From Acidocella sp. (GTDB taxonomy: Bacteria > Pseudomonadota > Alphaproteobacteria > Acetobacterales > Acetobacteraceae), in contig DAIDEE010000036.1 of assembly GCA_027308685.1 (NCBI GenBank), positions 1 to 42,245 on the forward strand: a DNA stretch of 42,245 nucleotides, in the 5' to 3' direction. Below the pieces are notes generated by a model. The model saw only the letters and a program-made list of their open reading frames with translations. It ran no database searches and was not told where the DNA came from. Shown here in pieces: positions 5,100 through 17,344 of this stretch (position 1 is the first letter of the stretch; the number at the start of each line of letters is the position of its first letter). The position numbers and the translations under genes were made by a program.

Positions 5100-5201
5100 T
5101 TGGCGCAAAAGTGCTACGCAGTAAATTTAGCTCTCCCGCTTGTATCCGGCGTAGAAGCACGGATATGTTGGCTTGCAAGTATCTGAACGGATTGTTTGAC
5201 T

Positions 5202-6167
5202 ATGTCTGAGGTTCACAAGACCCGCGTGCTGATTATTGGCGCCGGGCCGGCTGGTTATACCGCCGCCATTTATGCCGCTCGCGCCAATCTGGCCCCGCTG
5301 ATGGTGGCTGGGCTGCAGCCGGGCGGGCAGCTGACCATTACGACCGATGTCGAGAATTATCCGGGCTTTGCCCAGACCATTCAGGGCCCGTGGCTGATGG
5401 AGCAGATGGCGGCGCAGGCCGAGCATGTGGGCACCAAAATTATCTATGATATCATTACCAAAGTGGATTTTTCGGCCGCGCCGTTTCGGGCCTGGGCGGA
5501 TTCCGGCGATGAGTTTATCGCCGACTCCATCATCATCGCCACCGGCGCACAGGCCCGCTGGCTGGGGCTGCCCTCCGAGCAAACTTTCCAGGGCGGCGGT
5601 GTTTCGGCGTGCGCCACCTGTGATGGGTTTTTCTATCGCGGCAAAAAGGTTGCGGTGATCGGCGGCGGCAATACTGCGGTTGAGGAAGCCTTGTACCTCA
5701 CCCACCACGCCAGCCATGTGACCGTGGTGCACCGGCGGGATGCCTTCCGCGCCGAGAAAATTTTGCAGGACCGGCTGTTCGCCAACCCGAAAATCTCGGT
5801 GATCTGGGATCATGCGGTTGAGGAGATCACCGGCACGCAGGCGCCGGCGGTGGTGACAGGCGTTACCTTGCGCCATACCAAAACCGGCGATCTGCAATCG
5901 ATCCCGGTAGATGGGGTGTTCATTGCCATCGGCCATTCACCGACCACCGCGATTTTCGCGGATCAGGTAAAAACCGATTCGGAAGGGTATTTAATCACCG
6001 TTCCGGGCACCACCCAAACCTCGGTGCCGGGGGTGTTTGCCGCTGGTGACGTGCAGGATAAAATTTTCCGCCAGGCAGTCACGGCCGCGGGGACCGGCTG
6101 CATGGCGGCGCTCGAGGCTGAGAAATTCCTTGCTAATTTTCCAATGCACATAGAAAAAGCAGCATAA
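5202..6167 (+). CDS. trxB: Thioredoxin-disulfide reductase
   Basis: A 321-residue FAD/NADPH enzyme that reduces thioredoxin in the cytoplasm. The FAD-binding GAGPAGYTAAIYAA is at residues 13-26, the redox-active CATC at 137-140 (followed by DGFF), the NADPH-binding GGGNTAVEEALYL follows, and the C-terminal FAD motif GVFAAGDVQD is present. Length and domain order are those of the low-molecular-weight bacterial class. The ATG at 5202 is preferred over an in-frame TTG two codons upstream. A LysR regulator follows after 1-16 bp depending on its start, so the two are probably read as one transcript. Confidence 0.96.
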   Translation: MSEVHKTRVLIIGAGPAGYTAAIYAARANLAPLMVAGLQPGGQLTITTDVENYPGFAQTIQGPWLMEQMAAQAEHVGTKIIYDIITKVDFSAAPFRAWADSGDEFIADSIIIATGAQARWLGLPSEQTFQGGGVSACATCDGFFYRGKKVAVIGGGNTAVEEALYLTHHASHVTVVHRRDAFRAEKILQDRLFANPKISVIWDHAVEEITGTQAPAVVTGVTLRHTKTGDLQSIPVDGVFIAIGHSPTTAIFADQVKTDSEGYLITVPGTTQTSVPGVFAAGDVQDKIFRQAVTAAGTGCMAALEAEKFLANFPMHIEKAA

Positions 6168-6183
6168 AATGTCAGGGCAAAAA

Positions 6184-7080
6184 ATGGACTGGGACAAACT
6201 CCGCGTATTTCACGCCGTTGCTGAAGCTGGCAGCTTCACCCATGCGGGTGATACGCTCAACCTCAGCCAATCAGCGGTCTCCCGGCAGATTTCAGCGCTG
6301 GAGGAAGCACTGTCTGTGCCGTTATTTCATCGCCACGCCCGTGGGTTAATTCTCACCGAGCAGGGTGAGGCGCTGAACCGCACGGTGCGCGAAGTGTTCG
6401 CCAAATTGGCGATGACCGAGGCGCTGCTGGCGGAGAGCAAGGAAAAGCCCGCTGGCCGGTTGAAAATAACCACCACCCACAGCTTTGGCGTGACCTGGCT
6501 GGCACCGCGGTTGAAGCATTTTCTCAGTGCGCACCCAGATGTTTCGGTATCGCTGCTGCTTGATGATACCGACTTGGACCTCGCGATGCGCGAAGCCGAT
6601 GTGGCGATCCGCATGCATCCGCCGCGCCAGCCGGATTTGGTGCAGCGGCATCTCGGTGAAATTCGCTGGCAGGTGTGGGCGTCGCCCGATTATTTGAAGG
6701 CGCATGGCACGCCGGAGAAGGCTGAGGATTTGGATAGCCACAAGCTGGTGTTGTTCGGCGACCGCAAGCCGCCGGTCATGGATGTGAACTGGCTGGCCGA
6801 GGTGGGTCGCAAGGATGGCACGCCGCGCCGGGGCCTGCTGGAAGTGAATTCATTGCAGGCGATGCTGGTCGCAATTCGGGCGGGCATCGGCATCGGTGCG
6901 ATCCCGGATTACCTGATGCACGAGCCGGGCGGGCTGATCCCGCTGCTGCCCAATGTACAAAAACCGCATGTGGATATGTATTTTGTGTATCCGGAGGAAC
7001 TGCGAAACTCCAAGCGGGTTTCAGTGTTTCGTGACTTTTTGGTTAAATCAATTTCAGAAAGAACGCACGACCGCGCATGA
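6184..7080 (+). CDS. LysR-family regulator, LsrB/VtlR-like
   Basis: A 298-residue LysR regulator. The N-terminal helix-turn-helix region starts MDWDKLRVFHAVAEAGSFTH and continues through LNLSQSAVSRQISALEEAL, then FHRHARGLILTEQG; this opening is characteristic of the alphaproteobacterial LsrB/VtlR group. The C-terminal substrate-binding domain spans roughly residues 90-295. I start at the ATG at 6184, which has AGGG six bases upstream and matches family N-termini; an ATG five codons earlier (6169) is possible. Unlike the cysteine-sensing members described in rhizobia, this protein contains no cysteine at all. It lies directly downstream of trxB and upstream of a candidate small RNA. Confidence 0.9.
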   Translation: MDWDKLRVFHAVAEAGSFTHAGDTLNLSQSAVSRQISALEEALSVPLFHRHARGLILTEQGEALNRTVREVFAKLAMTEALLAESKEKPAGRLKITTTHSFGVTWLAPRLKHFLSAHPDVSVSLLLDDTDLDLAMREADVAIRMHPPRQPDLVQRHLGEIRWQVWASPDYLKAHGTPEKAEDLDSHKLVLFGDRKPPVMDVNWLAEVGRKDGTPRRGLLEVNSLQAMLVAIRAGIGIGAIPDYLMHEPGGLIPLLPNVQKPHVDMYFVYPEELRNSKRVSVFRDFLVKSISERTHDRA

Positions 7081-7135
7081 AACTGGCTAATTTGCTCAAG
7101 TTTTAAAAGTCTGTCGAGATCGTGAAGGCGGTTTA

Positions 7136-7150
7136 GTAAAATAATTTTAC
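7136..7150. promoter_or_regulatory. AT-rich perfect palindrome upstream of candidate small RNA
   Basis: GTAAAAT-A-ATTTTAC is a 15-bp perfect inverted repeat 56 bp past the LysR stop and about 45-60 bp before the predicted start of the small RNA. It could be an operator for a LysR-type or other regulator. Confidence 0.4.
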
Positions 7151-7194
7151 AATTTGCCTGTTAATTTTTCTAAATTGTGGCATATATACAACAT

Positions 7195-7323
7195 CGTCAG
7201 GCCCACCCAGGCCTGATTGGGGTTCTCTTCCAGTTTCGGCTGGGTTTGCGCCCTAACGTCTCCCAGACGTGAAGCCTCCCTGTTGACTTAACCCGCTGGC
7301 TGTTCAGCCGGCGGGTTTTTTTT
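7195..7323 (+). ncRNA. Candidate trans-acting small RNA with three hairpins plus terminator
   Basis: The LysR-nth gap holds four consecutive stem-loops in one direction. The first is TCAGGCC/GGCCTGA (7197-7203, 7210-7216) with loop CACCCA. The second is CCAGT/GCTGG (7230-7234, 7239-7243) closed by a TTCG tetraloop. The third is ACGTCT/AGACGT (7256-7261, 7265-7270) with loop CCC. The fourth is a strong intrinsic terminator (7290-7323). An AT-rich promoter-like stretch with TATATA/TATACA (7183-7190) precedes it; no clear -35 box is seen, so the 5' end is approximate. No open reading frame fits. The loops and the linker GAAGCCTCCCTGTTGAC are C-rich, like small RNAs that pair with ribosome-binding sites. 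I considered 6S RNA because of the GAAGCCT after a hairpin, but the molecule looks too short and the fold differs. Confidence 0.65.
7290..7323 (+). terminator. Strong intrinsic terminator of the candidate small RNA
   Basis: Thirteen-base arms (7290-7302 and 7305-7317) pair throughout with one G-T wobble around a two-base loop, and the stem runs into eight T residues (7316-7323). The T run on the plus strand fixes the direction. The distal half and T-tract also encode the last residues of the convergent nth gene. Confidence 0.88.
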
Positions 7324-8002
7324 GGCGCACGATCGGTGCCTGGGTTTTGGGTTTGAACACGCAATAGGCCGCCCCGGCGCAGCGCCAGCATTCCGGGGTG
7401 CGGGCTTTGCATACATAGCGTCCGTGTAAAATCAGCCATAGATGCGCCGGGCGCAGCATGTCCTGCGGCACCCTTTTGAGCAGGGCGTCCTCGACCGCCC
7501 GTGGGGTGGCGCCAGGCGCGATGCCGGTGCGGTTGCCGAGCCGGAAGATGTGTGTGTCAACCGCCATGGTGGCCTGGCCGAAAATTTCGTTCAACACCAC
7601 ATTGGCGGTTTTGCGTCCCACGCCAGGTAAGGCTTCCAGGGCGTCGCGCTCACCGGGGACCTCGCCGCCGTGGCGCTCGATCAGCAATTGCGAGAGGGCG
7701 GCGGCATTTTTGGCCTTGGCCTGCCACAGGCCGATGGATTTGATCCGCGCCCCGATGCCTTCGGCCCCCAGGGCCGCCATCGCGGCGGGGGTGGGGGCAT
7801 CGGCGAATAATATTTTGCCCACTTTGTTGACCGCGACATCGGTGGTCTGGGCTGACAGCATCACCGCCACCAGCAACTGGAACGGCGTGGCGTAGTCCAA
7901 CTCGGTGCGGGGATTCGGGTTGCCGGCGGCGATGGCGGTGAGAAACGGCGCTATATCGGCGTTCTTCATCAATTTTGGGCGTTTTGGCGGGGTCTGCGTC
8001 AT
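7304..8002 (-). CDS. nth: Endonuclease III (DNA glycosylase/AP lyase)
   Basis: A 232-residue base-excision repair enzyme removing oxidised pyrimidines. The helix-hairpin-helix LPGVGRKTANVVLNE carries catalytic Lys131, and the catalytic Asp is Asp149 in MAVDTHIFR. The four [4Fe-4S] cysteines are Cys198, Cys205, Cys208 and Cys214 with the classic 6-2-5 spacing. Length is usual for the family with ~15 extra N-terminal residues; an internal Met at residue 12 is an alternative start. Its stop codon sits at the tip of the plus-strand terminator hairpin, and its final KKPAG is encoded by that terminator. It diverges from the DUF2244 gene with 42 bp between them. Confidence 0.95.
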   Translation of the reverse strand: MTQTPPKRPKLMKNADIAPFLTAIAAGNPNPRTELDYATPFQLLVAVMLSAQTTDVAVNKVGKILFADAPTPAAMAALGAEGIGARIKSIGLWQAKAKNAAALSQLLIERHGGEVPGERDALEALPGVGRKTANVVLNEIFGQATMAVDTHIFRLGNRTGIAPGATPRAVEDALLKRVPQDMLRPAHLWLILHGRYVCKARTPECWRCAGAAYCVFKPKTQAPIVRQKKPAG

Positions 8003-17269: not shown

Positions 17270-17344
17270 GGCGGCGTAGCTCAGTGGTAGAGCAGGGGAA
17301 TCATAATCCCTTGGTCGGCAGTTCAAATCTGTCCGTCGCTACCA
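17270..17344 (+). tRNA. tRNA-Met (anticodon CAT), CCA encoded
   Basis: A full cloverleaf can be drawn. Acceptor GGCGGCG (17270-17276) pairs with CGTCGCT with two G-T wobbles; the D-arm is GCTC...GAGC; the anticodon stem GGGGA/TCCCT closes a seven-base loop ATCATAA with anticodon CAT; the T-arm is GGCAG/CTGTC with loop TTCAAAT. Discriminator A and CCA are encoded at the 3' end. The paired first base and the anticodon stem exclude an initiator tRNA. It resembles alphaproteobacterial elongator tRNA-Met; tRNA-Ile2, which also reads CAT in DNA, is the alternative. A TTGACT box at 17225-17230 may be part of its promoter. Confidence 0.93.

Follow-up and report, generated by a model that had tools for sequence, protein, structure and literature searches.

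A candidate anti-Shine-Dalgarno small RNA in the AbcR position beside an LsrB/VtlR-type regulator in Acidocella

The interval between a LysR-type regulator gene and nth in Acidocella sp. (contig DAIDEE010000036.1; the 42,245-nucleotide stretch that was analysed is called the window here) probably encodes a stand-alone, trans-acting anti-Shine-Dalgarno small RNA of about 130 nt that is the positional counterpart of the rhizobial AbcR RNAs. In the model that we propose from sequence comparison, variable hairpins at the 5' end would form a structured body, and an invariant 3' module (a hairpin with CUCCCA, then single-stranded GAAGCCUCCCUGUU, then a terminator) would be the working part, with Hfq probably bound to the U-rich tail. 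The C-rich single strand would pair with the ribosome-binding sites of several mRNAs and block their translation. It occupies the slot behind trxB and LsrB/VtlR, which holds AbcR1/AbcR2 in rhizobia, and perhaps shares with these an origin in one ancestral LsrB-linked small RNA; in the genus of the window, the LsrB-type box would have disappeared, its part apparently taken over by a different promoter.

The linkage of a LysR gene to a small RNA is itself not new: in A. tumefaciens, abcR1 and abcR2 come after trxB-vtlR (PMC7486931), and AbcR1/2 adjoin lsrB in S. meliloti (PMC8844928). What our data add is a different RNA in the AbcR slot, with a 25-nt core that extends across many families and that, in the window, lies below every Rfam cut-off. 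This core provides a marker by which the RNA can be annotated in many genomes, and the locus offers a natural case of a small RNA seed that stayed frozen while body and control changed. In the open-licence literature we found no paper naming SorX and AbcR1 together, and a search there with the core sequence returned unrelated papers only; a section heading in a 2025 paper reads "LsrB is a LTTR unique to Rhizobiales" (PMC11975290).

Structure and conservation of the RNA

The features of the locus are collected in Table 1. Direct reading and the predicted fold confirmed a row of stem-loops, a C-rich single strand and eight T, as the original prediction had it. The terminator and its eight T are likewise present, but the stem has 12 rather than the predicted 13 base pairs. 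Of the RNA range first proposed (7183-7323), the 3' end is kept but the 5' end is not: because 7183-7188 looks like a -10 element, the transcript probably starts near 7194. Apart from its last bases, the segment 7271-7282 is unpaired in the fold predicted for the window and in most folds of the genus; the single strand between core hairpin and terminator reads GAAGCCUCCCUGUUGACUUAA. The folding energy of 7183-7330 is -61.3, compared with a shuffle mean of -45.5 (z -4.2), and 0 of 200 shuffles were as low. Consistent with the predicted absence of a reading frame, the RNA stretch holds no plus-strand ORF of at least 60 aa (the minimum length of the ORF list). In 30 of the 32 genus folds (L042 and L044 excepted), the sequence behind CCUCCC is predicted to pair with the 5' end; we make no claim for this pairing because CAACA may lie ahead of the transcript start.

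Table 1. Features at the small RNA locus, in window coordinates
Feature	Position	Strand	Basis
trxB, thioredoxin reductase, first of the trxB-LysR pair	5196..6167	+	NCBIfam TIGR01292, 417 bits (cut-off 343)
LysR regulator, LsrB/VtlR type, without cysteine	6169..7080	+	Pfam LysR_substrate and HTH_1
-35-like hexamer GTTAAT, 17 nt ahead of the -10	7160..7165	+	Genus alignment; inference
Genus-conserved promoter-like block TTGTGGCATATATACAACA, -10 TATATA at 7183-7188	7175..7193	+	Genus alignment
Proposed small RNA transcript, about 130 nt	7194..7323	+	5' end inferred
Hairpin 1, TCAGGCC-CACCCA-GGCCTGA, 7 bp plus a G-U, loop CACCCA	7196..7217	+	Predicted fold
Hairpin 2, elaborated, CCAGT-TTCG-GCTGG (TTCG tetraloop) inside a longer stem	7218..7255	+	Predicted fold
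Core hairpin ACGTCT-CCC-AGACGT, 6 bp, contains CUCCCA	7256..7270	+	Fold; genus alignment
Class-wide ultraconserved 25-mer	7259..7283	+	Pattern search of class genomes
Putative single-stranded anti-Shine-Dalgarno element GAAGCCUCCCUG	7271..7282	+	Predicted folds; genus-invariant
Intrinsic terminator, 12-bp stem (7290-7317) and eight T	7290..7323	+	Read from sequence
nth, endonuclease III, convergent	7304..8002	-	TIGR01083, 243.5 bits (cut-off 211.7)

Within the genus, the RNA is present in 35 of 37 genomes, its own included, and the 33 nt at 7257-7289 are identical in all 32 aligned sequences. The original prediction had proposed a search for compensatory base changes in relatives, and these were found in the 32-sequence alignment: of 35 pairs, with 95.3% of cells paired, 13 are changed on both sides, compared with 7.2 (sd 1.7) in shuffles, of which 1 of 500 was as high, and with 3-11 in slid versions of the alignment. 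The covarying helices are the 5' helices (helix 1 included) and the terminator helix; the core hairpin is invariant apart from one G-U at its base, and the 5' hairpins vary in number and length. The alignment omits L116 and L143 as duplicates, L015 and L023 for a longer insert, and L039 and L040, which are cut short of the T run; L002, L004 and L006 had their ends adjusted by hand, and the short or shifted first hairpins of L006, L013, L020, L027 and the window group are poorly placed. Together with a conserved promoter-like block and the terminator, the compensatory changes support the original call of a small RNA gene.

Beyond the genus, the 25-mer was found, with up to three mismatches, in 120 of 385 sampled genomes of the class, the genome of the window included. 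The exact 25-mer occupies 86 of the 138 places listed (our own count) and is identical in many families; the reversed 25-mer gave 0 matches in the genomes listed. Further, a 21-nt inner pattern was matched by at least 119 stretches in a collection of titled genomes. Among the 80 titles listed are Azospirillum, Roseomonas, Reyranella, Thalassospira, Kiloniella, Magnetovibrio, Acidiphilium and Caedibacter; many of the titles are of uncultured "Alphaproteobacteria" or "Proteobacteria", and two are of metagenome-assembled genomes titled Rhizobium sp.

Additional copies were observed in a few genomes. Some small genomes, represented by L035, L036 (G049), L046 (G271) and G281, carry the core in two to four copies, and an LsrB-type LysR was not alongside the three copies from multi-copy genomes that were read. 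A genus member (L038, G013:C61) has a second, diverged copy, GTCACCTAGACGTGAAACCTCCCTGTT; its terminator is of the genus type, its upstream region differs, and no LsrB-type LysR lies alongside.

Position beside LysR and relation to known small RNAs

The gene order at the window locus is trxB-LysR-sRNA, with a gap of 1 nt between the end of trxB and the start of LysR in an operon-like order. The LysR protein is 49% identical over 288 aa to LsrB of S. meliloti and to VtlR of R. leguminosarum; of the 25 NCBIfam models listed for each of the three proteins, no model attained its cut-off. Thus the neighbour is of the LsrB type, as predicted, and the linkage is widespread in the class: LysR lies directly upstream on the same strand in 84 of the 103 titled loci with at least 600 nt of upstream DNA (16 of 119 had too little to be counted), and trxB was seen before LysR in 68 of these 84. 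The other 19 have no LysR within 1.5 kb, although in two (L159 and L212) one is located about 2 kb off. Similarly, LysR is upstream in 25 of 30 loci from the 25-mer search, the window's own included. The predicted site between LysR and nth holds in the window, but nth is not a constant neighbour elsewhere; in this 30-locus set, in which some loci are incomplete, it adjoins the RNA, besides the window, only in L002-L004, L006, L011 and L012. In the window, the terminator overlaps the 3' end of nth (7304-7323), the last codons of nth lying within it, so that the convergent genes share their ends. A tRNA-Met (cat) gene is found at 17270-17344 of the window.

The same slot is occupied by AbcR in the three rhizobial records, Sinorhizobium meliloti, Rhizobium leguminosarum and Shinella, each of which has two matches to the ar15 (AbcR) model RF02345 after LysR; these six matches, of 97-127 bits, served as the positive control for this model. 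The S. meliloti and R. leguminosarum loci have trxB before LysR and an ArsR gene after the ar15 pair, and the Shinella record is unannotated at this place. In Paracoccus ferrooxidans, a LysR 49% identical to that of the window, with no trxB alongside, is followed by a match of 49.3 bits to the SorX model (cut-off 46.6), which overlaps a SorY match of 58.1 bits, below the SorY cut-off of 111. Six loci with a related LysR were fetched in all; those on an Azospirillum brasilense plasmid and in Methylobacterium gave no Rfam match, and we saw no small RNA downstream in either.

The original prediction called the RNA unannotated and proposed an Rfam search, in which every family remained below its cut-off over the window RNA, the best being suhB/mmgR, BjrC1505 and SorX. 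The ar15 model (cut-off 40 bits) gave no match in the RNA region (E up to 10) or in the genome of the window (E up to 1), and a search of 14 genomes yielded only matches below the cut-off, in 6 of the 14, as it did in 8 of 14 control genomes. Under strict filters, and with no positive control, the model matched none of the 385 class genomes, which we do not count as absence. The window RNA shares with AbcR the slot next to trxB-lsrB/vtlR, a second C-rich single strand with a terminator, and the M1 motif CUCCCA, which here lies in a hairpin (7260-7265) and is mostly paired, with only CCC in the loop; further, an ATGC-N7-GCAT dyad precedes both AbcR1 of S. meliloti and R. leguminosarum and the window-type RNA at most loci outside the genus. 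It differs from AbcR in that the M2 motif GUUCCC, which lies between the hairpins (motif from PMC5461406), is absent and GCCUCCCUG stands there instead, in that the second ar15 hairpin is missing, in that its own genome has one copy compared with a tandem pair in the three rhizobial loci, and in that the upstream LsrB-type box is absent from its genus. Moreover, sequence similarity is not above that of shuffles, 185 of 500 of which score as high as the alignment with AbcR1.

With SorX (RF02784), the window RNA has in common a hairpin, a CCUCCCUGUUG single strand and a terminator, and the SorX model matches the LysR-linked RNA of Paracoccus; however, the window RNA scores 23.2 bits with this model (cut-off 46.6), and the published SorX arises by cleavage from an OmpR-type gene's 3' UTR (PMC6238624, PMC9438474). 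The suhB/MmgR family (RF00519) has a CUCCCU single strand before its terminator and shares an Rfam clan with ar15, but the window RNA reaches 30.0 bits compared with a cut-off of 41, and the model has one upstream hairpin. BjrC1505 (RF02356) has GCCUCCCUGUU before its terminator; the score is 28.9 bits compared with a cut-off of 50, with pairs broken. SmelC671, a rhizobial RFM with single-stranded CUCCCUGU between variable hairpins, resembles the window RNA by description only and, in the account of PMC3927594, is described for Rhizobiales only. GsrN of Caulobacter was set aside on inspection, as general-stress genes and a sigma-EcfG promoter were not seen in the sequence read around the RNA locus; GsrN homologs detected by BLASTn are reported from Caulobacteraceae only, and further candidates in Rhizobiaceae and others were picked by proximity to general-stress genes and a sigma-EcfG promoter (PMC5869019).

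Two histories could account for this pattern. Tentatively, and at slightly below an even chance in our estimate, a single ancestral LsrB-linked anti-Shine-Dalgarno gene ran through much of Alphaproteobacteria, and AbcR in rhizobia, the SorX-like RNA in Rhodobacterales and the ultraconserved-core RNA in Rhodospirillales and Acetobacteraceae would be its descendants; place, promoter box and role would have been kept and almost the whole sequence replaced, with the box swapped for a new promoter in the genus of the window. A real, if rather doubtful, possibility is that the RNA is of the SorX or MmgR type and unrelated by descent to AbcR, which would have replaced it or arisen beside LsrB independently, so that only the position is common. 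The nearest sequence relatives are indeed SorX-like: the alignment with the LysR-linked RNA of Paracoccus scores 40, compared with a maximum of 26 in 500 shuffles, the SorX model gives 40.9-43.2 bits (below the cut-off of 46.6) on three LsrB-linked loci from other families, and an alignment signal with AbcR1 is absent. However, AbcR loci share the slot and the promoter dyad and resemble the window RNA in their two-part C-rich layout, and suhB/mmgR, the best sub-threshold match of the window RNA, is in one Rfam clan with ar15. Because the alignment with AbcR1 is at shuffle level and that with the Paracoccus RNA is far better, the RNA should be named a positional counterpart of AbcR with a SorX-like 3' sequence, and not AbcR.

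The conserved core and its presumed action

The C-rich anti-Shine-Dalgarno elements of the original prediction are present, and a frozen CCUCCC single strand after a hairpin, with a U-rich end behind it, is the layout of anti-Shine-Dalgarno small RNAs. In AbcR, two anti-Shine-Dalgarno motifs silence many transporter mRNAs (PMC8844928, PMC5461406). We consider it likely that the window RNA would similarly block translation of several mRNAs. It is improbable, in our judgement, that the invariant core is instead a protein-bound element or a decoy of a 16S rRNA region for which mRNA pairing is secondary. Identity over 33 nt exceeds the need of short seed pairing, the core hairpin is nearly constant in 32 sequences while other helices covary, and the 25-mer is identical in many families; all of this would suit such an element. 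However, diverged forms (GAAGTCTTCCCT, GAGCTTCCCT and ATACCTCCCTGTT) keep only the C-rich element before the terminator, as expected of an anti-Shine-Dalgarno seed. Among 30 diverged LsrB-linked loci from genomes without the 25-mer (the best 30 of 34 LysR matches in 44 handpicked genomes), this element was found in 15, compared with 0 on the reverse strand and a mean of 0.075 in Markov resamplings, which for this element and for the dyad and box below keep dinucleotides only on average; it was not seen in the other 15 (28 of the 30 had at least 300 nt downstream).

Target prediction with the C-rich stretch, also proposed originally, gave no conserved target set. The pattern CAGGGAGG-N2-12-ATG has 10 matches at 9 places in the genome of the window (reversed control, 2), three of which lead ORFs of more than 100 aa, named by eye as hemN-like, a pufC-like cytochrome and hemJ-like (L233, L234, L241). 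A set of tetrapyrrole and photosynthesis targets was rejected: of the genus relatives listed, 1 of 21 keeps the hemJ site and 0 of 17 the hemN site. Two other genus genomes gave a match for the pufC-like site: G023, with CAGGGAGG, and G006, with CAGGGAG. A looser pattern, AGGGAGG-N3-10-ATG, has 21 matches (control, 4) and added a mixed group of genes (spoT-like, nuoK-like and rplF-like, by eye). Perfect-complement sites at start codons are few, two of the three gene-linked ones are not conserved, and we claim no targets. The genome itself seems to encode a photosynthetic reaction-centre cytochrome, and a 12-nt perfect complement of the core, CAGGGAGGCTTC, lies directly before the ATG of a 34-codon frame (L240, G000:C45:6409-6423).

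The region upstream of the RNA

The AT-rich, promoter-like stretch of the original prediction corresponds to a genus-conserved block, TGTGGC-TATATAC, that is preceded by AT-rich sequence and has a 17-nt spacing to the -35-like hexamer. A simple promoter scan missed GTTAAT/TATATA; its sole plus-strand match is TCGAGA-17-TAAAAT at 7114-7142 (9/12), and a promoter there would mean a longer transcript. The block was rejected as the mark of a regulon: its own genome has no other copy with fewer than three mismatches and two with three, as many as the control.

Outside the genus, 68 of 101 distinct loci carry the exact dyad in the interval that separates LysR from the RNA (resampled mean 0.6, maximum 3), and 18 of them have the published LsrB/VtlR box GCAT-N3-TG-N3-T (18 of the 101; resampled mean 2.3, maximum 7). 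Because the loci sampled are relatives of one another, counts over them are not independent events. The exact dyad is also present in 11 of the 30 diverged LsrB-linked loci (resampled mean 0.4, maximum 3) and ahead of AbcR1 in S. meliloti and R. leguminosarum and of the Paracoccus RNA; at the Shinella locus only the published box occurs. Within the genus, exact dyad and published box are found in 0 of 32 loci, and the window has no dyad even at two mismatches. At one mismatch, the dyad occurs in 7 of 32 genus loci (resampled mean 2.6, maximum 8), three of which (L030, L043 and L045) have ATGC-N7-GCGT, perhaps a relic. Further, the LysR of the window has 0 cysteines, whereas S. meliloti LsrB has 3. 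Over the aligned part, 22 of the 32 genus LysR proteins have one cysteine, 1 has two and 9 have none, and 77 of all 133 LysR sequences compared have none. Because the exact dyad is absent from the genus and the LysR is free of cysteine, LsrB-type redox control through the neighbour, a possibility raised in the original prediction, is unlikely in this genome, and the idea of a thiol switch does not extend to it.

That the RNA is a mere 3' tail of the LysR transcript, made up of its terminator and processing hairpins, with no promoter or function of its own, is very unlikely: it does lie downstream of LysR on the same strand, and the published SorX itself derives from the 3' end of an mRNA (PMC6238624, PMC9438474), but a conserved promoter-like block with 17-nt spacing separates LysR and RNA, the dyad is present in most non-genus loci tested, core copies exist without LysR alongside, and the single-stranded core is invariant.

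In 4 of 193 core-bearing loci (L050, L148, L208 and L219), a homolog of an integrase query starts ∼170-220 nt upstream of the core and points away from it; the search of the core-bearing loci found no second core repeat. Pfam identifies the L050 protein as a phage integrase, and mobile elements may use the small RNA gene as an attachment site.
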